From: Liolophura sinensis
Taxonomy: Eukaryota > Mollusca > Polyplacophora > Chitonida > Chitonidae
Reading direction: 5' to 3'
DNA length: 64,000 nucleotides
Assembly (NCBI RefSeq): GCF_032854445.1
Contig: NC_088300.1
Location: 53,232,984 to 53,296,983, forward strand
Shown piece by piece: positions 198 through 64,000 of this stretch. Under the pieces are notes generated by a model, which did not search any database, was not told where the DNA came from, and saw only the letters and a list, made by a program, of their open reading frames with translations. Both the position numbers and the translations under genes were made by a program. Positions within the stretch are counted from its first letter, which is position 1. Every line of letters begins with the position of its first letter.

Positions 198-6636
<6,439 letters not shown>

Positions 6637-17100: not shown

Positions 17101-20100
17101 TCCACATGTGTTTAAGAAGCTAATGTACAAATATAAATACAACACTTAACTACTCTGACTAACTGCGATTAGGTTCAGCTTTACAGGTTTGCCTTTGTTG
17201 GAGTAAGAAAATTCGTTTTCACGCAGCTTGATTTTATTAGAACTCGTGATCACACCTTACCAGTGAAAGCCTTGATTATCCAACTATACCATTCATTATA
17301 TGGAAATTTGGGGGAAGAAGATGCCAAACTATAACCTGTTGAGTATTCAGATATAAACAGCTATGTGGTATTGATATCATGGCTAATTCCAACCTTTCAC
17401 ACAGGTCTGATTTAGGAAATCTGTATTTGCCCTTATCTTTAGAGGTCATGCCCTTATATCCAGAGGTTCTCTGGATCTTCTATGTCCTTATCTGGAAGCT
17501 CTGCCTCATCTCTTGAGGTTCTTATCTCTGGGTGTTCTCCCATATCTGGAGGTTTTACACTTATCTACAGAAGTTCTGTGATTGTCTACAAATTTTCTGT
17601 CTATCTCTTTAAGTTCAGCTCTTACTGTTCAGGTTCACATGAGCAGCTGTTTATAAATATGTTAAATATTCAATTTTTTCAGACATCAAAGGTCTTCCAA
17701 AAACCAACAATGGTAAGTCAGTATTTAGGCAAGTAAATTATATAGTCTAAAGGTGTTTATTTATGTCCTGAACACAAGTCATGGTGTACACTTGAAAAAT
17801 TTGACTTACAGTAAATACTGTCAGGTAACCATGTCTCTTTAATGCCTGTTAAGTGCTCATATGCTGGCCACTGGTCCTAAGTGTAGCACTTCAGATCAAG
17901 ACCTGCCTACCAATGAGATCACATGTTCAGATACAATGTATGTTGGATTTCACATGGCATTCCATTTCCCACTCTACTTCTGTAGGTGCTGGGTATAACA
18001 CCAGTGAAATTATAAATAGGTACATTTGTAACACCTAATGTATTCTATTAGTATCCTCTCCAGAACTTACAAAACCATTCTGTCCTGTAGATGGTTTTGG
18101 GTTTCCCCCGTGTTGTGCCTGGTTTCCTCCCACCATAATACTGGCCGCCTTAGTGTAAGTGAAATATTCTTGAGTATGGTGTAAAACTCCAGTCACATAA
18201 ATACAGTACCATTCTTAAACATGGAATTTTCCCTATTCCCCAGTTCGAATTGTTCTGGAGTCCTTGGTGGCAATAAGTGGCCAATGGTTCTCTCTTGTGT
18301 GTCCTTACATGAAGTTTGCTAGTGACCACTTGCTTTCCTCTGACAGGATGTGCCACATGTGGAAAGATTCACCTGGATAAAGGTTGGTGGTTTAGTTTGA
18401 GCATTATGGTTTTCTCCACCCTTAATATACTGCTCGCCATCTTATAAGTGAAAAATCTTTGTGTATGGCATAAAAAAGCAAGAAGAAGAAACCCAGGGCA
18501 TATATTGATGTAGGCTTCCCCTTCTGTCATGTCAGGTTATTGTGTTAAAGTCTAAATGTGTGTAGTTTTATAATCCTCTGATGTGTTGGACAGGTGAAAA
18601 ATAATGTGATGACAGTGAAATGTCGCAGCCCTGAGCTCCTGCATGACCTGGAGATCAGAGAACCAGTAGATGCTGTCCCAGGGGGAAGGGATCCCTCTGA
18701 CCCACACATCCCTCTCTTGCAGGAGGTTATCAGCGAGGATCTCTGTGATCACCAGGTGTCGGCAGATCTGGGTAACGGGCGGAGAGAATATCTGTTTGTG
18801 AGAGATCGAAGCATTCTGACAGAGTAAGTAAGAGATCTGAGTAAGTTTCTTCCATTTTAATAAGGTTTTCCTTTTTCACCCATTATATATTGTCATATCA
18901 TCTCCGTATAATAGGTGTGAAGTGTGTGATGTCTTTTACCACCAACAAGAAACAGAATAATAATGAGTTTTGTTTTTTAAAAAGCTTGTCACCTTTGTGT
19001 TCTTCTGTTTCATTTAAATGAAGTTTTCAGTGAACATTTGCAAAATCATGAATGATTGGTGATTAGTATTCAGTTTCAAAACAAAGTGTTGCAATGAATG
19101 CTTGGGGTTCAATATCGGGCCTATCAGTCCTTGCTCTAACCTCTTAGTGGTGAGCGCCGAGTACAATATTTAAAAGTCTTCCGTATGGCCCGACCAGGGT
19201 TTGATCCCGGATCTCTCGAGTCTCCTGACTTCAAGGTGGATGCTGTAACCATTAGGCCACCAAATTGGTCTACAGAAAGTGTTGGATTTCTTGTTATCTT
19301 TGGCACAGCGTACATGAACAAACACTTAAATGTTACACTGGATGCGTGCAATTTTGTACCTTACCTGTCCTTGACTAGATATGCAGAGCTTTATAAGAAG
19401 AATGCCACTCACATTGGAGAAAGTGCGAGTAAAGTGGCCAAATTGTGCCAGATGTCACCAGTTGATCCAGACAGATCCCCTGCCTCCTCCCCTACTGCCA
19501 CACTAAGACCGTGCAGTACCCGAAGTCCCAGAAAAATACCAAGCTGGATGTTCAGCCAAAAGGCATTGAAAACCCATGCTTCCTCAACATCACAGAACAG
19601 TCCCAGTGACACCTACAGACACAGGTACATGTGTTCTAGAGTTAAATTTCTCACCAATATGGGTATGAATGTTTTCAGCATCTAACTAGCACAGAGGGAC
19701 TGTTTCTCCACAACCATTCTTCGATTTCACACTTTCCATGTGCAGTCCAGACGATCTAAAGGAAGCGCAGGATATTTGAATGCGCATGTCATCAGGAGAT
19801 GTCATCTTGAAACCAAGGTTTATTTCCCTCACCTAACTAAGTATCTCTGCTTTGTTTACATGTAGTCGATGTAAGTAGTGTTTGTGTATCCCGCTAGGTT
19901 CTAGCAGGTTGAAATCCTGATCAAGTTAGATCAACTGATGATAAGTATGTACCAGCTGATGATAAGCAGATGCAGGCTGATGATAAGCAGGTACCAGCTG
20001 ATGATAAGCAGGTACCAGCTGATGATAAGCATGTACCAGCTGATGATAAGCATGTACCAGCTGATGGTAAGCATGTACCAGCTGATGGTAAGCATGTACC

Positions 20101-23014
20101 AGCTGATGATAAGCATGTACCAGCTGATGATAAGCATGTACCAGCTGATGGTAAGCATGTACCAGCTGATGGTAAGCATGTACCAGCTGATGATAAGCAT
20201 GTACCAGCTGATGATAAGCATGTACCAGCTGATGGTAAGCATGTACCAACTGATGATAAGCAGGTATCAGCTGATGGTAAGCAGGTACCAGCTGATGGTA
20301 AGCTTGTACCAGCTGATGATAAGCAGGTATCAGCTGATGATAAGCAGGTACCAGCTGATGGTAAGCATGTACCAACTGATGATAAGCAGGTGGAGGCTGA
20401 TGATAAGCAGGTACCAGCTGATGTTAAGCATGTACCAACTGATGATAAGCATATACCAGCTAATGGTAAGCATATACCAGCTGATGAAAAGCAGGTATCA
20501 GCTGATGATAAGCAGGTGGAGGCTGATGATAAGCAGGTGGAGGCTGATGATAAGCAGGTACCAGCTGATGGTAAGCAGGTACAAGCTGCTGATAAGAAGG
20601 TACAGGCTGATTGTAAGCAAGAACAAGCTGCTGATAAGCAGGAACCGGCTGATGGTAGGCAGGTACAAGCTGCTGATAAGCAGGTACCGGCTGATGGTAA
20701 GCAGGTACTGGCTGATGGTAAGCAGGTACCGGCTGAAGGTAAGCAGGTACAAACTTTTGCTAAGCAGGTACCGGCTGATGGTAAGCAAGAACAAGCTGCT
20801 GATAAGCTGGTACTGGTTGATGGTAGGCAGGTACAAGCTGCTGATAAGCAGGTACCGGCTGATGGTAAACAGGTACAAGCTGCTGATAAGCAGGTGCCAG
20901 CTGAAGGTATGCAGGTTCCGGCTGTTGCTAAGCAAGTACCAGCTGATGGTAAGCAAGAACAAGCTGCTGATAAGCAGGTACCAGCTGATGGTAAGCAAGA
21001 ACAAGCAGCTGATAAGCAGGCACCCGCTGATGGTAGGCAGGCACAAGCTGCTGATAAGCAGGTACCGGCTGATGGTAAGCAGGTACAAGCTGCTGATAAG
21101 CATTTACCGGCTGATGGAAAGCAAGAACAAGCTGCTGATAAGCAGGTACCGGCTGATGGTAAGCAGGTACAAGCTGATGATAAGCATGTACCAGCTGATG
21201 ATAAGCAGGTGCAGACTGATGGTAAGCAGATACCAGCTTCAGGAACTTAAAACGACATTGTTTTCTGTTGTCTAAAATTATGTTCCTCATCTGTATTTAG
21301 TAGACCCTCCAAGAAGACTATGTATGTGATGACAGAGGCAGAACTCGTGGATGTAGCGAGTAGGATCCTAAAGGAGGTATGTAAATTATGACAGTCTGTC
21401 GAAACATAGGTTTGAAACTTGGTAATTACAAGAAATTTAGTGTCTTCCGTTACACCATTACAAAGTTCCTGGGCCCAGTTGCTCAAAAGTGTATTAAAGG
21501 TTAATATAGGCTTAAATCTTAATCTTAAGCATAATTTCAAGAATGTGTGAAAAGCTCCTAGATCCTCAATATTTTTTAAAATGAAAGTCCCAGGATGTAT
21601 TATACTATCATATCTGTACATTTTAAATGAAAACTTGTATTATTAACTTGTGGGTCAGCATCGTTCATTTGTTCTTCATCTGTTCCAGGCTGGGAAGCCC
21701 CTTCCCTCGGAGAGATTGGAAGCCAGTCATTTTGGGGTAGCTCCGCTCCCTGCGGATGATGTTAGACCGACTGTTAAGGATCAACTTACCCAGTATCCTG
21801 ATCAGCCCGTTATTGATTCTGTAGCTGAAGAAACTGCTGATAGGAGAGATGTGACTGGTTTGAATACCCAGGTCAGCTCTCAACCAGTGGGAAATGTTTT
21901 GGATGATCTCTTCTCGTGCGGAAAGAGTTCAACCACCCGAAAGAAAAGAAAAGTTAAACACAGGTATAAAAGATGGATTAGAACTGGAATTTGTAGATTC
22001 CCCCGCTCGCTCTTCAGGGGTCCTTTGTGTTAATATACAGCCTTGTGTGGTATATGATTTGTGTAAGGTTGCTTCTTTACACAGGCACTCCACCCATAAA
22101 CTGACTGTCATCTTATAAGTGGAAAAAATCTTATTTAAACAATCAGATAAATACTAGTACATGCACATATACTAGTAAATAAATAGAACAGATGGATACA
22201 ACGCTGGCTGTCACTGGATAAAGATGTCACAGTGGATAAACATTTGTTTTTAATTACAGAGGCAGCGTAATGACCCAGGAGCCTCTCATCAATGCGGTTG
22301 CTGTGAGTTTAAGTTCAGCTCATGCTGGCTTCCTCTGTGGCCATATATGGGAAGGTTTTGCGGCAACCTGCGGATAATCGTGGGTTTCCTCCCACCATAA
22401 TGGTGGCCGCCGTCGTATAAATAAAATATTCTTGTGTACAGCATAAAACAACAATCAATTAACATAAATAAATTACAAAGTTTCGGAAATGAGATTGTTG
22501 CCATAACTGAAAATATCTGATGATTTGATTAGATCATCGCAAGCTAATTAGAAAACACAGACCTTTTACCAGTATGCTGTGGGTTTCTTGCTGATTCTGG
22601 TTCATTGGAATAAAGTGTTGTACTGTAGTCAGCCAATTTAGCCTCTGCCCAATGACATCACGGGTTCAAATCCAGCTCTCCCTGGTTAGGCTTTTGAGGT
22701 TTGTCAGGTGGCTTTGTCAACCCATTAACCTGACTGTGTCTTACGTTGTGGCAGTGAAATAATCCCTGCAGTGTTCAACAGCAAACAGTAATACCTCTGA
22801 ATCACGAACTTTTTCTTTCAGTACTTACAGTAACAATTCCCTTTTCAGTCTCAAGTTACATAATGATTCCCCAGAGCAGGATACCGGAGATGTCAGTTTT
22901 GTGCCAGACACAGTTACCATGGTACCAGAGACTATTACATCATCAGCTCAGAGACGTTATTCCAGAGACGGGACATCTCCTGACTTGTCTGTGTTAGATG
23001 AAATCTTCTCCTGA
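8143..23014 (+). CDS. P-loop polynucleotide-kinase-like / HAD-like nuclear protein, 15 exons, with a frame break and in-frame TGA
   Basis: Exons: 8143-8190, 8672-8803, 9763-9839, 10195-10409, 11047-11101, 13639-13792, 14258-14322, 14886-15011, 15542-15613, 17683-17712, 18594-18823, 19379-19624, 21301-21376, 21689-21963, 22822-23014. The predicted product is about 664 residues. Walker A GPPFVGKS (residues 12-19) spans the exon 1-2 junction. The 'NVVIDDENQLKESRSSYI' segment resembles the P-loop kinase lid region of T4 PNK/PNKP-like enzymes. Residues about 200-300 (VLFVADG...GVTSS...DFPIYAI...PNPGLIAYL) look like a HAD 3'-phosphatase core without the DxDGT nucleophile motif. The tail is Ser/Pro-rich, with the basic NLS-like KKRKVKHR (about 593-600) and the ending SVLDEIFS. 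A DNA or RNA end-processing role is inference only. Breaks: exon 3 is one base short for the exon 4 phase, and TGA interrupts exon 4 at 10225. All other junctions are in phase. No orthologue name is recognised. Confidence 0.78.
8923..9148 (-). repeat. Near full-length tRNA-derived SINE (reverse orientation)
   Basis: Lies in intron 2 of the kinase-like gene. Reading the minus strand, it begins with a degraded tRNA-like head, carries a B-box-like 'gagttcaagtccag', continues through 'ctcatgctggcttcctctcc' and 'ccataatgctggctgccgtcgtataag', and ends in an (aataaata)n tail. It is one of the best preserved copies in the window. Confidence 0.8.
10225..10227 (+). other. In-frame TGA within the kinase-domain exon 4
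   Basis: The reading frame of exon 4 is VPHCKFTLVD-TGA-CPKYGIQQL...FRVASHAEKCF. Both sides read as one continuous conserved-looking protein segment, so the TGA is a single interruption and not the edge of an exon. It could be an inactivating substitution (for example from TGG), a sequencing error, or a recoded codon. No selenocysteine insertion element was identified. Confidence 0.8.
10535..10705 (+). repeat. tRNA-derived SINE, 5'-truncated
   Basis: Intron 4 copy of the SINE in sense orientation: 'ccagctcatgctggcttccctctcc', 'tctgctcagtttctgtcatcat', 'aaatgaaatattcatgagtatagcataaaacacc', then an AT-rich tail. Confidence 0.75.
11745..12550. repeat. 45-bp minisatellite, about 18 copies
   Basis: Unit of 45 bp around 'ggttagacctatgtggaagtcacctcacaccgtatcaattattcg' type sequence, with two main variants (cacctcacaccg and caactcaaaccg/catatcg). 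It lies in intron 5 of the kinase-like gene. Because 45 is divisible by three, reading frames stay open for about 100 codons through it. That is a property of the period and not evidence of coding. Confidence 0.9.
14515..14700. repeat. Degenerate tandem repeat, about 30-bp period
   Basis: Successive variants of 'catgtttacttggttacatcaatac' in intron 7 of the kinase-like gene. The units are diverged and the period is approximate. Confidence 0.6.
15039..15115. repeat. 30-bp tandem repeat, 2.6 copies
   Basis: 'acccttaagagacaatgttctgaacattta' begins at 15041, 15071 and 15101, exactly 30 bp apart, in intron 8 of the kinase-like gene. Confidence 0.85.
15835..16710. repeat. Degenerate 21-bp minisatellite, with an outlier block at 17430-17640
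   Basis: Units of about 21 bp such as 'ggttcagtccttatctctgga' fill intron 9 of the kinase-like gene. They are strongly diverged, with local higher-order duplication (16075-16220). A further degenerate block of the same unit lies at 17430-17640, separated by about 700 bp of unrelated sequence. Confidence 0.8.
18095..18205 (+). repeat. tRNA-derived SINE, 5'-truncated
   Basis: Sense-orientation 3' half of the SINE: 'gggtttcccccgtgttgtgcctggtttcctcccaccataatactggccgcc', then 'aagtgaaatattcttgagtatggtgtaaaactccagtcacataaata'. Lies in intron 10 of the kinase-like gene. A more decayed copy follows near 18390-18480. Confidence 0.75.
19186..19275 (-). repeat. Second tRNA-like SINE-type repeat
   Basis: On the minus strand the sequence reads as an A-box-like 'tggcctaatggttacagc' followed about 35 bases later by a B-box-like 'gggatcaaaccctgg'. 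These are the two internal promoter boxes of a tRNA-derived SINE. It does not resemble the common SINE of the window. It lies about 100 bp upstream of exon 12 of the kinase-like gene. Confidence 0.5.
19930..21240. repeat. 21-bp minisatellite, about 62 copies, open in several frames on both strands
   Basis: The unit is 'gtaccagctgatgataagcat' and variants. From about 20,580 onward it becomes a 42-bp alternation of 'gtacaagctgctgataagcag' with 'gtaccggctgatggtaagcag'. Register is kept throughout 1.3 kb. One plus frame reads 426 codons of V-P-A-D-[DG]-K-[QH] heptads, another 445 codons, and minus-strand frames also stay open. Splicing of exon 12 (phase 2) to exon 13 (AG+T) is in phase without it, so it is treated as intronic. 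Many units contain gatg/gtaag and cag/gta donor-like sequences. Confidence 0.9.
22262..22470 (+). repeat. tRNA-derived SINE, nearly complete
   Basis: In the last intron of the kinase-like gene: 'gacccaggagcctctcatcaatgcggttgctgtgagttt' head remnant, 'agctcatgctggcttcctctgtggcc', 'gtgggtttcctcccaccataatggtggccgccgtcgtat', and tail. Confidence 0.8.
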
Positions 23015-24828: not shown

Positions 24829-27800
24829 TCAATGATACTTTTTCTGATTCCCTGGTTTAAATGGATCAAATAGTTTGGGATCATTCAGATAAACGGTTTC
24901 CTTCAACAAAAACGGCATGAAACCTGTAACAAACAAACAGCAATGTGTATACAGCCCTATTTAAACATAATACAAGCTTTTCTGTATGAGCTGATATTCC
25001 TAGCACAGTTTTATAATCATTTGTTTTGCAATATATTATTAGTTTTGTCTATTTCATATAAAAACTCTAGATCAGCACACTGGAAGAATCTTGAAATAGT
25101 ACCTGGGTACTCGGGGTAGTATAAAGTTCTAGTACAAAATTGTAGTAGTTTTATCTATAAGACAGCCCCATGAAAATTACCACGAAACCTAACTGGTCCA
25201 AACTGCCAAATTAATATATATTTGTAAAGAAGTTGAAGCGGAAATAGATGACATGAAAGGCTTTGGAGGTTGTCAGCTTTCCACAAAGGGAAGCAAATCT
25301 TGTACCTGATGGAACAGAGTTGCTCATTACACCTACTTCACCAGTGATGAAGTATAACCATTATGTCTCCCCCAATTCGGTCGCTGAGAGTTCATGTCCA
25401 GCTCATGCTGGCTTCCTCTCTGGCTGTATGTGGCAAGGTCTGCCAGCAACCTGTGGATGGTCATGGGTTTCTCCCAAGGCTCTGCTCAGTTTTCTGCCAT
25501 CATAATGCTGGCCATCGTATAAGTGAAATACTCTTGAGTACTGCGTAAAACATCAATCAAATAAATAAATATAACCATTATGGGTTCAGTTATTAAACTA
25601 GGTACAAGGCAGCACTGTTGTGTGAGTTTTTTCCCACGGTAGAGGGCTAATGAGCCTCGTTACATTGCCATTTCTCTTTTACCTGTTTAAGATATAAATT
25701 TTTTTACCTGCTTTCCTGGATCTCTGAATAAGCTGACTGATTCTCCTCTGCATGGGTATACATAACCCTGTGATGTGCCTGCCGTATATCCTGCCAGTGT
25801 AGGGTGATGTGAACTGACTCAGAAGTTGGGTGTTCTGTAACACAATGAGATATATATTGTCAGTGTACAGTGATGTGAACTGACTCAGGAGCTGGGTGTT
25901 CTATAACACAACAAGATATATCTTGTCAGTGTACAGTGATGTGAACTGACTCAGGAGCTTAGTGTTCTATAACACAACAAGATATATCCTGCCAGTGTAC
26001 GGTGATGTGAACTGACTCAGGAGTTGGGTGTTCTGTAACACAATGAGATATATCCTGCCAGTGTAGGGCGATGTGAACTGACTCAGGAGCTGGGTGTTCT
26101 ATAACACAATGAGATATATCCTGTCACTCTGTGGTGATATGAACTGACTCAGGAGTTGGCTGTTCTATAACACAAGAAGATATATCCTGTCACTCTGTGG
26201 TGATATGAACTGACTCAGGAGTTGGGTGTTCTATAACACAACAAGATATATCCTGTCAGTGTAGGGTGATGTGAACTGACTCAGGAGTTGGGTGTTCTAT
26301 ACCACAACAAGATATATCCTGTCAGTGTAGGGTGATGTGAACTGACTCAGGAGCTGGGTGTTCTATAACACAACAAGATATATCCTGTCAGTGTATGGTG
26401 ATGTGAACTGACTCAAGAGCTGAGTGTTCTGTAACACAATGAGATATATCCTGTCACTCTGTGGTGATATGAACTGACTCAGGAGCTGGATGTTCTGTAA
26501 CATAATGAGATATATCCTGTCAGTGTAGGGTGATGTGAACTGACTCAGGAGCTGGGTGTTCTATAACACAACAAGATATATCTTGTCAGTGTACAGTGAT
26601 GTGAACTGACTCAGGAGCTTAGTGTTCTATAACACAACAAGATATATCCTGCCAGTGTACGGTGATGTGAACTGACTCAGGAGTTGGGTGTTCTGTAACA
26701 CAATGAGATATATCCTGCCAGTGTAGGGCGATGTGAACTGACTCAGGAGCTGGGTGTTCTATAACACAATGAGATATATCCTGTCACTCTGTGGTGATAT
26801 GAACTGACTCAGGAGTTGGGTGTTCTATAACACAATGAGATATATCCTGTCAGTGTAGGGTGATGTGAACTGACTCAGGAGCTTAGTGTTCTATAACACA
26901 ACAAGATATATCCTGTCAGTGTAGGGTGATGTGAACTGACTCAGGAGCTGGTTGTTCTGTAACACAATGAGATATATCCTGTCAGTGTAGGGTGATGTGA
27001 ACTGACTCAGGAGCTTAGTGTTCTATAACACAACAAGATATATCCTGCCAGTGTAGGGTGATGTGAACTGACTCAGGAGCTGGGTGTTCTTTAACACAAT
27101 GAGATATATCCTGTCAGTGTAGGGTGATGTGAACTGACTCCGGAGCTTAGTGTTCTATAACACAACAAGATATTTCCTGCCAGTGTAGGGTGATGTGAAC
27201 TGACTCAGGAGCTGGGTGTTCTATAACACAATGAGATATATCCTGTCAGTGTAGGGTGATGTGAACTGACTCAGGAGCTTAGTGTTCTATAACACAATGA
27301 GATATATCCTGTCAGTGTAGGGTGATGTGAACTGACTCAGGAGCTTAGTGTTCTATAACACAACAAGATATATCCTGTCAGTGTATGGTGATGTGAACTG
27401 ACTCAAGAGCTGAGTGTTCTGTAACACAATGAGATATATCCTGTCACTCTGTGGTGATATCAACTGACTCAGGAGCTGGATGTTCTGTAACACAATGAGA
27501 TATATCCTGTCAGTGTAGGGTGATGTGAACTGACTCAGGAGCTGGGTGTTCTATAACACAACAAGATATATCCTGTCAGTGTATGGTGATGTGAAATGAC
27601 TCAGGAGCTGGGTATTTTATGATCAAAATAGGGATGTTGGCCAGTAACCATGCAGTTATCAGATGAAATTAGTGACAAAGACTGACTCGTGTCTAACAAA
27701 TGAGTTATACTGTAATTATCTCCACACTAAACAGTTACCTTGTAATCCAGATCAACATTGTATTTACAAAGTACACATCTTCTCCTGGGTTTCTTGTAAG

Positions 27801-30800
27801 GACTTTCCATCTCTGTTAGAGGCTGAAATAACGGAATCACATAATTAGTAAATGGTTTCAATGAATACATGAAAAACATTACCATGGTCTTTCTTGTGAC
27901 ATGACAACAACGCCATGCCCTTGCATGGTCCATTAACATCACTTTACAGTACAGTGTATTCATTACAACATGTTTAACAGGCGGCGGTTATAAACAATAA
28001 GGGCAAGTTTGTTCTGTCATGTTAATAACATATATATCCTGAATTAACATCTTTGCACATGCAGGAGATTATACAATCCACAAAAGATAAAGAACACAGA
28101 CCAACACAGACTGAAAATCTACAATGTTAAAACACAAAGCTATTCTTTCAAACTCAACATATATAATAACAACTGTACCAGATCTGCCTGCATCTGCTGT
28201 TGAAGCACAAGGCTGTCAAGGAGTTCTGGGTCAAAGGTTGGTTTCTCCTCAGGGATCTGCTCTGGGATGTCTTCTGTGTAATCTGTGATGTCTGTTTCCA
28301 TGGTAACAGACTGTGACGAGTCTGCTACCTTGCTGGAGCCTACATCTGAACTTAAAGTTCTTCTCTCTGAATAGGAAGATGAAATGAACTTAAAATCGAT
28401 GCCTTTTTTCATGAGCAAGATATTGGTACTACAATTTCTCAACTGCAATTCTGTGTAGTAGTATAGAAGCGTGTAAAGCCATATCACTCATTCAATTCTT
28501 CACCTTCAATCTGGAGCCCGAGGGTATAACTTTCAGTTCTTTTCAGATGGATTTAGACATGGCTTAAAATGTGTCGGTTTATTTATTTGATTGCAATTTT
28601 ACACATTACTCAAGAATATTTCACCTATACCAGACCCCTAGCTTCAAACAAAAATGGGCTGAGGGGCATTTTTCCAAAAGGGGCACTTTTTAGCATGAAC
28701 TAAGCTTTAAACGACATTATTTTCTGCTTGCGTCTTTAATAATGAATGTGATAACTAAATATTCAAAAGATATATAGCCAACTCAACTATCAACTATGCA
28801 TTTGTAAACTGTAATCCTTCTAATTTTCAGGACATATTCATTGGAAGTGATTAAAACAGACAATTGCCGTTCTCAGTATTTCAGAAAAGTAAAGACATTT
28901 ATGTGTTGTTCCATGGATGTACTAACCATGTGGGAAAAACATATTTATTCCTGTTACAATTACAGTGTAAACTGGTTAAAAAGAGCAGACAAAATGTCCC
29001 ATAAATAGAAGAATTGCAAAGTGTGTGTTCACAGCAAGTGTTTGTTGCTTTAGAAGATGATCCTAAATGGACAAACAAATAATTTATAAAAATACTGATC
29101 ATTACAGAGGCTTTATTTAGAGTACTGAAAAAACAACTAACAAAAGGACCTTTACTTCTAATTTTAAATTACAGACATTAGTTACAGATGCTAGTTGTAT
29201 TATGTTGTTGATCTTTCAGCAGTAAAACAGCTGAGCTTAACTCAACAAATCAAAAGTACTCTAACTTGCCTTATCTTAGTCATTTGTGGTAATCTGCAGT
29301 CTATTCTAGTTTTAATTTTAAACCAACCATGAGCAAACGAGCATTTTATTATACGACTTTGGACCCATTAGACGGACTCAACTGACCCTGTGGAAAAATT
29401 TAAGTAATGAAAACAAGGCTGTGATGGGTGCACTTCTAAATGGTTTACCCACTGGTCCAAATGAGCATCGCTGTTCTAATTATATCTATTAAACAAATAT
29501 TGTGAATACATCTGACACCTAACCACCAAGCGTGAATTGATTTGGTGATGAATTTATGGTGGTCAAAAGACAGAAAATTAACAGTAACAGCTTAAAGTAG
29601 GTATCAGTGAACTACATCCCTCTATGAGCCTAACACAAACTTCAGTAAACTGAACCGGTGCTTGATTACAAACAAATGTTATGACAGTGGATTTTGGAAG
29701 TCAGGTATAGGCTAGTTGACATCAGACAGATAAAATGAATACAGTCTGACTGGACAGCAGCCACTGGTTAATAGGGCTCATCAGCCCATCTCCCGAGGGG
29801 CAGGGCGCATACTGAGAGGGGCGTAGCAAGGCGTCCTTCTGTTCTGTATAACACGGCGGCCAACATTATGATGGGAAGAAACTGGGCTGAGCCCCGAGGG
29901 AACCATCTGGATCTTACTGGCATAGCTTCCTAAGTACTAAGATGTATGAAGTCAAAACTATAAAAACAGAGATAAGTCCCAAAGAACCACATAAAGGACA
30001 TGTAGATACAAGATAATTGTGTGGTTCAAACTAACTGCCTTAGCTGCATCAAATATTTAAAACAGAGCATGGTCTGACCTTCGTTATTGCTTTGCCAAAC
30101 AAATGTCGATTCCATATTGGACTAAGCCTATATACCAGGCTACCATATATACACCTACTTAGCCCAGAAACACTCCAATTCCTTTTCTTATACTGGCCTA
30201 GCATCATTGGAGTCTTGACGCCAACAGTGTTAATTTCATACTCAACAAAGGTCCAGACCGATTACCTTTGTTTTCGAACAAGCCTCATGCAAATGAAAGA
30301 CACCAACCTAAAGATCTGCATTCCACACCCATCGTACTGCAACCTGGCCATGCATCTCGGCTGTGATCTTTTAATATGGAGTTAGGCATGGATCACAAGA
30401 GAGGCCAGTGGTCCCCGCATATCAGTATGTATAGGTTTCTGAGGTTTCAGGCTAGCTGCAACCATATGCCCCTACTTGCTTTAAAATATGTTTGATAACA
30501 AAGACAATCCACCTGGATCTTAGTTGAGCACAAAATTTACACTGTTAGCATCGAGGCTCTAACGTACAACGCTAGGCCAGTATAAGAAAAGGAGTTTAGG
30601 GCTAATGCCCATCTACTACCTAGCCTAAGGAATTAGTCTTATCTGCTAATAATAATGAAAGTGATTAATCTACCTAATTATGAAAGTCTTGAAATTTAAT
30701 TCCGTCCTGGTATCATACTAAACTATGAAATGTATATTTCTGAGCACATGAAGTGTTGACAGTCGACACTTCAAATTTAAGGGATATGACCTTAGCCAGT

Positions 30801-36296: not shown

Positions 36297-38065
36297 CTAG
36301 TCAAGCCCAATCCATTCTGGAGGCATATAGTCGGACAAAACGAAACCTTTACTAAGAAGTGACCTCTCCGCGGTTTGGTGTTTATAATAGATGGTCATCC
36401 CACCAGCTAACCAACCCGCCCACCACCCAAACGACCCCACGCTCATGATCATGTGATTACACAGAGATAACACCGCCAGATCCTTTTCAGCAGAACGTGG
36501 GGATATAAAAACTGCACGATCATGTGGTATGAATGAACGAACCCATTCCTGATCTTCGGAACATACTATGAAAACCACTACTGGAAATTTCCTCAGAAAA
36601 ATATCCATGGCGCGTAAGAAGTAGTCCTGTGGTGCGGTTTTATACCCAGTGTTAACATATTCTTCCATCAGCATGTCACCTCTCCGTACGTGAATCCCAA
36701 CGAGCGTCTGTTCCGGAAATTTGTCAAAGCCTTGTTGTCTTACCGCGTCAGACAATGTGGATCTAGCTTCATCCAAGATGTGTTGCCTAAAGGCAAAATG
36801 GTGCCGAAGTTCTTGTTCGACATGTCGAAAATAACGCCATGATTGGTAAGAACCGGACAATATGGTGTTGACCCTGCTGTCAAAAGCAACGGATTCATTA
36901 TCAAAAGCTGCGTATCTTTTTCCACGGTGAACCAGATATCTTAGGCATTCCCGGTCGTCGATCAGTTTAGCGCCAAGCTCAAACGTTTGCAATTCAGGGT
37001 GATCCTTCTGAATGACAGGGACCATGTTCTTCTCTGTGGCAATGCCAAGAACTGCTGCGTATTGAAACATGCGATTTCCAAGTCGGGCGTTGTACAAGAA
37101 GCAGAGATTGGCTTGAGGTTTGTTTTTCTTGTAGAGAGTGTTGGCTTTAAATGCCTTATCTGTTTGGTTGTTGCTCTCGCTGTGTGTGAGTGATACCGCC
37201 ATTTTGTCACGTTTGTCGCCGTCTTCAAATGAACGACTTGTTGATTTCGGCACACGATGGAAATCATGTAAGTAATGCGCGAGACTGCAGAATACCAAAA
37301 CTCCTGAAAAACAAGGAACACTCTGGTTTTAAGTATGTTAATAAACCAAATCACTGCATCTGAAAGCATTATACATAGGTTGAATCATCAATGCTGAAGA
37401 TGTAGTATGATTTAATACAATAGAAAAATAGTTTTCAACAAATTACGGATTGTGACGATACTCCCAAGTACTGTATGTACTCCAAGTGAAGTTAATGGGA
37501 AAGGCAACAAATAATTTAGGGAACTGGCCTAAAACAGCCACGGCCATTGTTTTTGTGCTTGGCAACTTACGAGGCCATAAGATACACCATAGTTAAGGAA
37601 GCCGGATGCGGGCATGCTCTCTCCTCATACATAATAGGAAAGGGAAACTCGATATCGCATACTCGTTCCATTCTAAGATCGTTATTTTATCTGTATGCCA
37701 AGAAGACACAACACGAATCGCCTGACGTCATATCGGAAACAGGTGCCTTTTCGGGGTATAGCAAAAACTCGTGCCTGATTGATTAAATTGATAACATAGC
37801 AGCGTTTTCAATTTTCTTGATGTTCGTAGTTTAACTGACTTTAAATTACGATTTCTCGGTTGTATCGGATCACTAAAATATTCCGTAATGCTTTTTAATC
37901 TTTTGGTGGGGTATTTTATCAATACATGTCATATATACATTTGGTCTGGTGTTTTTTTTAAAACTATCGACAAACTAACAAACGTACAAGTTAGAAAATA
38001 TCTACTAGTACTTGCTTACCTATTCCTAACAAGAATATAGCACAACAACGTATTTTGATTGTCAT
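36297..38065 (-). CDS. GT11 galactoside alpha-1,2-fucosyltransferase
   Basis: Transfers L-fucose from GDP-fucose in alpha-1,2 linkage to galactose-terminated glycans, as a Golgi type II membrane enzyme (GT11, FUT1/FUT2-like). Exons 38065-38020 and 37303-36297 join in phase for 350 residues. The short first exon and the start of the second together make the signal anchor (IRCCAIFLLGIGVLVFCSLAHYL, residues about 5-27). A polar stem follows to about residue 80. The catalytic part has ARLGNRMFQYAAVLGIA, the GDP-fucose-binding motif I GIHVRRGD at about 218-225, and the C-terminal motif DLAVLSLCNHMIMSVGSFGWWAGWLAGG. The length matches the family. The ATG in exon 1 is chosen because it creates the anchor and an in-phase junction. 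Acceptor fine specificity cannot be read, and the family is often expanded in invertebrates, so no FUT number is given. Confidence 0.93.
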
Positions 38066-61782: not shown

Positions 61783-63789
61783 TCACGAGGGTGCCCCTTC
61801 CCCGGTGTTTTGAGTAAAGCAGTTACCCATAGTGTTGTAAATCTGCTTGATGGCCTCTTGGCAGTCATTATATTCCCGCCAAGGACGACACACCGTGTCC
61901 TCAAGCAGCCGCAAGTGACCAAGAAGTAGAGGAAGCGACTCTAGGAGATCTTCTCCTTGCAACACTTTCTGCAATGCCCCTTGGAAAATGTCTCCAGAAT
62001 GCTTCAGACAAACGATAGTGTGTGTTATGTCTTGTTCCATCTGACAATCTGAGCAAACCGATTTATCCGTTAAACCGTCCATCGGCACAAAAACACGACC
62101 ACTACAACTCTTGCATTTGATCACAGGCACCTCGTTGGGGATATCAAAATACTGAGGCCAGTTTTTCACGCACGCTTCACAAGAGCATTCAAAGAAATAT
62201 TGTGAACTGAGATGTGCGTTTCTCTCCAGGCGTGTTGACAAAGCGCACAGCGCACCATAGTTGTCGGCAATTTCCTCCCCTCGGCGTATGAAGCGAATCG
62301 CCCTTGTTACACAACGCCGTCCATAAGACTGTCTCATGACGGACGGATCGCACGAGTGGTTGACCAAACTTAACGTGTTGTACAGGCCTGACCCTATTTC
62401 TGCCGTTCTGGAGGTGGCAAGCTGACCCGGCACAAGAACTAACTCTGATATCTCATGAGCGTTACAGGGCAACATCATAATATGGCGGAGAATTTGGCTA
62501 CCCACGTAAAAAACATTGTCCTCAGACAACTGAATACCCGATACAGAGTTTAAGAACTCCGTTTGTTGCAAAAGTTTCAAAAGCATAGTGGCCATGACTG
62601 TCCTTCGGAAAAGATCTCCAACTGTCCTGTTGTCCTGATGATTCACTAAAGCGTAAGCTGCCCAATAGTCGTCCGATCTGTAGACGCCATCTCTGTTGCA
62701 GCCCATGAACGTTTCGTCTTTAATGTCCATCTTCTTGTTCTTCAAACTAAGCACCTGTTCCAAGCCAGCCGTCAGTACCATTCTCAGGGCTAAACGTCCC
62801 AGCCCGATGTCCGCTTCGAGTAACACTTCCAAGTAATTACACTCGGTTTTATGGTAACTAGACCATGCGCAATCTCGACAATGTTCATTACAATACACTA
62901 CTCCACTGCAGTATCGACATGGTACGGGCGCTACGGATCTTACCAGGCAGAAATCACAGTGGGTTTTAGTATAAGGCTTTAGAAGCATGGCAGCGTAGGG
63001 TTCTTCAGTAATCACCACTTCGCCAATCTCAATATCTCTCGTTGCCACAGCGTAACGTCCCTTCTCTGGAGTATACACAAGATCAAAAGCAGCAGTGGCA
63101 CAAGGGAATTTAGTATTGGTATCTTTGCGCTCGGGAAGTGGCCAGAAATACTTGGGTTCATTACTGGAAGATTCGTCTGCGTTAGATGTTTGGAACAAAG
63201 CACGTTTTAGATCCTCTGACCATTTCGATCTTTTCGGAATGTCCAAATTGGACTTTTGGAGATCATCTTCTACATCCTTTGCGGCTGTGGTCGCCTCCTC
63301 GGTCCTGCCTAAACAAAAACAGCACCGAGCCTTCCTATCTAGCAGTTTGTACCTTAGTTCGTCAGGGTATCCGTACTTTAGAGATGCAGCAATGTCCTCC
63401 AGGCATAACCTATACATCCGTATGTGATACAGCACTGCTGACCTATTAGCAAAAGCTAGTGACAGTTCCTTACTCTGAAAAGGAGCGAACAGGATGCTTT
63501 TTGTATAGTAGTGGAGGGCAATTTGGTAGCGTTTCTTTTTGAACAGATCATTTCCTGTTGATCTTAAAAGATTTGATTCTTCGGTTGATTTGGCCTCGGA
63601 TTTGGCAGGGACTTCAAAGTACCTTTGAAAAGCAGGCAGTCCGTACGCAAACTTTATCCTCTCCTCATTATTTTTCAGTTTTCCGAACTTCTCCGACAAA
63701 GTCACGTGATCCCCGCCATCTTGGAGTTCCTGGCACAGCTGGGTAAACCTTCTGGAAAAGTCAAAGGCCTCACTCCATCCCTTAGACAT
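61783..63789 (-). CDS. SMYD4: SMYD4-like protein (TPR, MYND zinc finger, SET domain), intronless
   Basis: SMYD-family putative protein-lysine methyltransferase, 668 residues in one exon. A TPR-like region at about 70-190 (LLRSTGNDLFKKKRYQIALHYYTKSI; LAFANRSAVLYHI...CLEDIAASLKYGYP) precedes the SET N-part (VYTPEKGRYAVATRDIEIGEVVITEEPYA). The MYND finger (CDFCLVRSVAPVPCRYCSGVVYC...C...H...C) is at about 273-313. The SET core has NHSCDPSVMRQSYG (about 475) and GEEIADNYGAL. The post-SET cysteines CSCEAC and a second zinc ribbon-like CKSCSGRVF...CSDC follow. The TPR-before-MYND order is typical of SMYD4 and not of SMYD1-3/5. The first ATG after an in-frame upstream TGA is used (63789). An upstream non-coding exon cannot be excluded. 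The gene symbol is by family resemblance; lineage-specific SMYD4 paralogues are common, so exact orthology is uncertain. Confidence 0.9.
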   Translation of the reverse strand: MSKGWSEAFDFSRRFTQLCQELQDGGDHVTLSEKFGKLKNNEERIKFAYGLPAFQRYFEVPAKSEAKSTEESNLLRSTGNDLFKKKRYQIALHYYTKSILFAPFQSKELSLAFANRSAVLYHIRMYRLCLEDIAASLKYGYPDELRYKLLDRKARCCFCLGRTEEATTAAKDVEDDLQKSNLDIPKRSKWSEDLKRALFQTSNADESSSNEPKYFWPLPERKDTNTKFPCATAAFDLVYTPEKGRYAVATRDIEIGEVVITEEPYAAMLLKPYTKTHCDFCLVRSVAPVPCRYCSGVVYCNEHCRDCAWSSYHKTECNYLEVLLEADIGLGRLALRMVLTAGLEQVLSLKNKKMDIKDETFMGCNRDGVYRSDDYWAAYALVNHQDNRTVGDLFRRTVMATMLLKLLQQTEFLNSVSGIQLSEDNVFYVGSQILRHIMMLPCNAHEISELVLVPGQLATSRTAEIGSGLYNTLSLVNHSCDPSVMRQSYGRRCVTRAIRFIRRGEEIADNYGALCALSTRLERNAHLSSQYFFECSCEACVKNWPQYFDIPNEVPVIKCKSCSGRVFVPMDGLTDKSVCSDCQMEQDITHTIVCLKHSGDIFQGALQKVLQGEDLLESLPLLLGHLRLLEDTVCRPWREYNDCQEAIKQIYNTMGNCFTQNTGEGAPS

Positions 63790-64000
63790 TATATTGTGAA
63801 GTACAGACTTTTTCACGAACAGACTTCATTGGTGGTCTACAAGGAAACAATTGTTTTTAGTCACAACAACTTGTATATTTGCCTGTTGTTTAGCGAGTTT
63901 ATAACTTGAACGATTGCGGTCAGTTTTACGGGTGGAGGAAACCAATGTGTCTTGGATAAACCAACGACCTTTAACAAATTACTGACGAATTTACCCTATT
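63790..64000. other. Right edge: SMYD4-like promoter side and repeat remnant
   Basis: Upstream of the SMYD4-like start. 'gattgcggtcagttttacgggtggaggaaacc' and 'aaattactgacgaatt' (63912-63990) match the repeat remnant at 60815-60890. Confidence 0.4.

Follow-up and report, generated by a model that had tools for sequence, protein, structure and literature searches.

A mirage minisatellite across the intron 3/exon 4 boundary of MRPS18C in the chiton Liolophura sinensis

Intron 3 of MRPS18C in the chiton Liolophura sinensis contains a row of near-copies of its own 3' splice site, carried by a 66-bp minisatellite that runs across the boundary into exon 4. By its boundary-spanning unit, its exon-adjacent authentic copy, which is identified from the encoded protein, and the retention of splice signals in 26 of the 27 remaining copies, this array is a mirage, a kind of structure already known from amphioxus. 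It is probable that the mirage arose by local duplication, that the exon-adjacent site is chosen mainly through exon definition, and that the array is most likely tolerated rather than selected. Positions below refer to the window, the whole 64,000-nucleotide stretch of contig NC_088300.1 that was analyzed, unless another locus is named. The published Liolophura assembly comprises 609.5 Mb in 632 scaffolds (PMC11068029); the species was first named L. japonica, which a later correction changed to L. sinensis (PMC12441733).

Joined minus-strand exons predict a protein that matches mammalian mitoribosomal bS18m with an E-value of 4.9e-30, compared with 1.4e-8 or worse for S18a and S18b, and its alignment to bS18m crosses the exon 3/4 junction (DYK/N) without an insertion, both of which support the gene assignment made in the preliminary description. 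Exon 3 occupies 27739–27822 on the minus strand, with its donor AAG/GTAACT at 27738 (8.75 bits). Exon 4, at 25708–25834 on the same strand, is 127 nt long and encodes the Pfam Ribosomal_S18 domain (PF01084, 51.5 bits); its donor, GTAAAAAA, lies at 25707 (6.75 bits). The last coding exon ends in a stop codon and occupies 24829–24923, also on the minus strand, behind a 14.3-bit acceptor whose last intron base is 24924. The exon 4 start and exon 3 donor given earlier, 25834 and 27738, are thereby confirmed, and the exon 4 donor is added to them. From protein conservation we infer that the functional acceptor is the one at 25835.

Three Ribosomal_S18 exons were found in the genome. All three S18 genes have an AG of normal strength (8.1–11.6 bits) at one shared codon boundary with a phase-0 intron, and the acceptors of the two paralogues at this position are ordinary ones of 8.1 and 9.6 bits. 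The shared position implies that the intron predates the split of the three genes. Tandem Repeats Finder (TRF) found no array comparable to that of MRPS18C around the two paralogues, which, given the age of the intron, marks the MRPS18C array as a late addition. Near MRPS18C, also on the minus strand, are DEAD-box helicase ORFs of HELQ/POLQ-like appearance (1415–5369, with a PF00270 match at 5037–5369). HELQ adjoins MRPS18C in human, and the location of the helicase ORFs and MRPS18C on one strand may represent old synteny.

TRF reported the array at 25785–27620 with a 66-bp period, 27.8 copies, 90% matches and 0% indels. Registering the units by hand gave 28 copies on the minus strand at 25791–27638, indel-free and without N, so the registered 28-copy array of the preliminary description holds. 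The spacing is exactly 66 bp, and the copies themselves are not identical: identity averages 90% between decoys and 88% between the authentic unit and the decoys. Each unit joins 22 nt of intron end to the first 44 nt of exon 4. The register and the bS18m-compatible junction also substantiate the earlier reading of the unit as the 3' splice site plus the start of exon 4, with the functional copy downstream. This authentic unit, k0 (25791–25856), carries the functional 3' splice site ttacag/AACACC, with 25835 as the last intron base and 25834 as the first exon base. The nearest decoy, k1, follows at 25857–25922 with its last intron base at 25901, and units k2–k26 (25923–27572) all retain an intact AG. 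Farthest upstream is a degenerate copy, k27 (27573–27638), which matches the unit at 41 of 44 exon-derived positions and at 10 of 22 intron-derived positions, and has no AG at the former acceptor (ataa/AA). The number of decoy acceptors is thus 26 rather than the 27 counted previously, and the 28 units consist of 26 intact decoys, one authentic copy and one degenerate copy.

Several features of the array bear on its origin. The genome contains at least 12 matches to the unit, and all 12 of those listed fall inside this array; a dispersed satellite or transposon was rejected on these grounds, and the matches point instead to birth of the array at this locus. GATATA, a 6-nt direct repeat, occurs once at each end of the 66-nt segment, at intron -22 and at exon +45, and the exon reads on as GATATACGG at the point where the unit reads on as GATATATCT. 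The repeat bounds the presumed seed segment and therefore fits replication slippage or microhomology repair. Under the favored account, a segment across the intron 3/exon 4 boundary would have been tandemly duplicated in place by one of these processes at GATATA, and the array would then have grown by unequal exchange or block duplication, lengthening the intron from ~122 nt, its length without the array, to the present 1,904 nt. Units 2–4 are identical to units 12–14, and mean identity is highest between units 10 or 15 positions apart, which suggests block duplications and past instability of copy number. Such duplication joins only the last copy to the remainder of exon 4, so the original mRNA can be recovered only through that copy.

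Splice-site strength offers little to distinguish the authentic acceptor from its copies. We scored 3' splice sites with a position weight matrix whose training set comprised 46 acceptors belonging to myosin and kinesin exons of this genome; domain matches combined with an EM procedure, rather than cDNA, supplied these sites. Decoy acceptors scored 7.5–11.6 bits, corresponding to the 22nd–65th percentile of real sites (leave-one-out median 8.3), while the authentic acceptor scored 11.63 bits and was tied by six decoys. The decoys therefore look competent as acceptors by this measure, and the site score cannot single out the authentic one. Three further possibilities were considered and rejected. 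RNA structure hiding the decoys was not supported, as two-unit folds gave unremarkable z-scores of -0.5 to -1.2. Nor can the units act as tandem alternative exons, lacking as they do a usable donor: no GT in the array exceeds 2.95 bits and most score at most 0.3, against a real-donor median of 9.6. Recursive splicing was ruled out by the AA, not GT, that follows the MRPS18C acceptors.

The preliminary description left the choice of the last acceptor to an unknown rule or to the production of isoforms. A published rule already predicts that choice, which makes an unknown one unnecessary: in human exons with long flanking introns, the splice sites closest to each other across the exon are preferred, and in minigenes with two equal donors the exon-proximal donor is used exclusively (PMC9225289). 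The effect is weaker for 3' sites, where human exon-defined sites show merely a reduced preference for the upstream site (PMC9225289). Exon 4 has a long intron on either side (1,904 nt and about 780 nt), and decoys from k4 onward would create exons of at least 391 nt, longer than 94% of 36 sampled exons. We infer that exon definition, a rule drawn here from human data, is mainly what picks the authentic acceptor of MRPS18C, with the donor at 25707 probably pairing across the 127-nt exon with the nearest acceptor despite equally strong decoys upstream.

Use of a decoy would have one of two outcomes. The 66-bp unit amounts to 22 codons and stays in phase, and the earlier expectation that upstream acceptors add 22-residue blocks is correct for k1, the sole decoy with an open frame. 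It fails for the other 25 of the 26 decoys (k2–k26), each of which meets an in-frame stop (TTATAG) once 21, 43 or 65 codons have been read. Nonsense-mediated decay (NMD) is expected where a stop precedes a later exon junction. The decoy stops lie upstream of the junction at 25707, and such transcripts are therefore expected NMD targets. Under the favored account the decoys would seldom be used, k1 yielding a protein with 22 additional residues and the others premature stops and probable NMD.

Three further mirages were identified in this genome. The first lies in a kinesin gene (L055:773–1529, C8 near 682.2 kb), where a 64-bp unit in ~12 copies carries the acceptor ggttgtacag/GAAGCC, retained in eight decoys. 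Its authentic acceptor scores 9.13 bits, below seven of the eight decoys (10.4–12.2). Site strength as a general rule is rejected by this result together with the ties in MRPS18C. The second, in a myosin gene, is a 5' splice-site mirage (L037, donor at 1688 of the turned locus, C12 near 686.7 kb) in which eight copies of a 66-bp unit provide six decoys and the authentic donor at 11.11 bits each. Another 5' mirage (L030, donor at 2097 of the turned locus, C12 near 684 kb), with 18 copies of a 31-bp unit, probably belongs to the same myosin gene, ~2 kb from the first. In all four mirages, the coding-compatible site is the exon-adjacent one, at the downstream end of the array for acceptors and the upstream end for donors, although this regularity partly follows from tandem duplication and is by itself silent on the behavior of the spliceosome. 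Strength fails to separate the sites in L055, L037 and MRPS18C, so position rather than strength is what the four have in common, as the cross-exon proximity rule predicts.

We surveyed 46 acceptors and 44 donors of myosin and kinesin genes for overlap with tandem arrays. Minisatellites make up 16% of non-exon bases in the surveyed loci, and only two of the 90 boundaries, those of the L055 and L037 mirages, overlapped one (binomial P ~2e-5, with boundaries treated as independent). The avoidance of splice sites by minisatellites assumed in the preliminary description is thus evident in these genes. The corresponding mirage rate of 2.2% (95% CI 0.3–7.8%) must be extrapolated with caution because it derives from two gene families in one genome. 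L030 falls outside the 90-boundary sample, and the count of four is not a full census, as a scan of array edges missed the kinesin mirage.

Could local sequence, rather than position, pick the acceptor in MRPS18C? Here the authentic site alone is preceded by both CTGAC and an AG-free zone of 43 nt, compared with zones of 19–20 nt in all 26 decoys; the longer zone results from the loss of the internal AG of k1 at the unit junction (CTGACAA). The branch-point-like CTGAC, only a candidate, lies at 25859–25863 on the minus strand within k1, and its A (25860) is at -26 relative to exon 4. The AG of k0 is also the first to follow either of the two candidate branch points upstream, and the exon copy reads CTGGC (Gly) where 16 intronic copies read CTGAC. 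Against this, CTGAC occurs at -26 in 14 of the 26 decoys as well, zones of 19–20 nt are common among the 46 training acceptors (median 33 nt), and a feature unique to one site in 27 is weak evidence. No such contrast is seen in the kinesin mirage, where the AG-free zone is equal in authentic acceptor and decoys. Learning a branch-point consensus proved impossible with 46 introns, of which 7 contain CT[AG]A[CT] against a background of 11%. We regard control by local sequence as rather unlikely, though the AG-free zone and CTGAC may make a minor contribution in MRPS18C. A distinctly improbable alternative is that the array is a regulatory device, in which acceptor choice yields MRPS18C extended by 22 residues or NMD transcripts and copy number tunes mitoribosomal dosage. 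It draws support from the intact AG of all 26 decoys and their scores within the range of real acceptors, from the open frame of k1 and the position of the other decoys' stops ahead of a later junction, and from the precedent of a human minisatellite whose extra donors are used in mRNA (IFI6, discussed below). The stops reached from 25 of 26 decoys weigh against it and narrow the idea to a single in-frame decoy product, and two independent mirages, one whose 64-bp unit would cause a frameshift and one with intronic decoy donors, lack a comparable frame logic. Moreover, the AG is invariant in the decoys, but so are 44 of the 66 unit columns, and the avoidance of boundaries in the survey is the expectation for something tolerated. 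Neither column invariance nor variant counts revealed selection on the decoys, although both tests are weak ones, applied as they are to related copies. Coding selection was likewise set aside for the array, with stops in most units and no clear constraint. The exon-derived part of the units holds 12 nonsynonymous and seven synonymous distinct variants, and 7 of 19 slightly exceeds the expected synonymous fraction of 0.25, which leaves room for weak coding constraint. Neutral tolerance appears to be the best reading of the array.

Two other explanations can be given still less weight. That the array serves as a homotypic enhancer is very improbable: the AP-1 consensus TGAGTCA does occur in 27 of 28 units, and the window holds 35 TGASTCA sites where 12 would be expected, with 27 falling inside the array, but the motif consists of the exon codons CTG AGT CAG (Leu-Ser-Gln) and was copied automatically when these were duplicated. 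Least likely of all is a false expansion or collapse of the array during assembly. HiFi coverage is just 14x (PMC11068029), and contig C99 (108,685 bp) carries seven COX1 copies at ~15.5-kb spacing, apparently a head-to-tail mitochondrial concatemer, so the assembly does hold repeat artefacts. Yet the mean HiFi read, at 8,347 bp (PMC11068029), greatly exceeds the 1.85-kb array, the units of the array diverge by ~10% with neither indels nor N, and similar arrays are present at other loci. Local duplication followed by tolerance is the account we retain.

Mirages have been described from amphioxus in Adh3 and the globin genes BflGb6 and BflGb9 (PMC3087553, PMC3902484), with lancelet PGBD5 and troponin C (TnC) as further cases (PMC3902484). 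They reportedly leave splicing undisturbed (PMC3087553, PMC3902484), and RT-PCR suggested normal splicing (PMC3087553). The chiton arrays resemble them as minisatellite-like tandem duplications of a 3' or 5' intron/exon boundary, with unit lengths of 10–160 bp, splice signals in many copies, the authentic boundary at the exon end and the most divergence in boundary copies. They differ in their mollusc host and in copy number, with 28 in MRPS18C versus 3–6 in BflGb6, and the chiton case is known from sequence. No report of a mirage in molluscs or chitons was found in the open literature searched, coverage of which was incomplete. Human IFI6 (6-16) also has a minisatellite with repeated splice sites within a gene, and two of its repeat units act as donors in mRNA (PMC4526556, citing Turri et al. 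1995). In contrast to the donors described there, MRPS18C repeats acceptors, among which only one decoy keeps the frame, and is characterized at the sequence level. Closer in logic are constructs with tandemly duplicated splice sites (Reed and Maniatis; PMC9225289), where equal-strength sites compete in cis and proximity sets the outcome; the known examples are minigenes made for the purpose or annotated pairs of human sites, whereas MRPS18C presents 26 naturally occurring decoys lined up within a single intron. Tandem alternative exon arrays likewise copy exon sequence within one gene, but their units have the usable donor that is missing here.

Mirages have so far been treated as an amphioxus oddity, and four are now found in a mollusc. 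The finding suggests that a high density of minisatellites will, in any genome, place some of them across splice sites, where they are tolerated. Each mirage constitutes a natural splice-site competition, with up to 26 near-identical decoys, in which strength, transcription order and cross-exon proximity can be set against one another. Mirages are also candidate intermediates toward longer introns and new intron positions. It is possible, though clearly unlikely, that chiton mirages occur at a percent-level share of exon boundaries and that some, such as that of MRPS18C, use a few decoys, with array length adjusting output or isoform.

Elsewhere in the window, a 42-bp array of 31 copies (19935–21238) has several open frames on each of the two strands, the longest ORFs reaching 456 aa, and contains recurrent CAG/GTA motifs. 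Two long single ORFs on the minus strand encode a glycosyltransferase family 11 protein (36297–37328) and a SET/MYND-domain protein (61783–63825). In the mitochondrial sequence, with genes read from translations, one strand has the order cox3-nad3-nad2-cox1-cox2-atp6 and the other nad5-nad4-nad4L-cob-nad6-nad1, an arrangement we take to be ancestral for molluscs.
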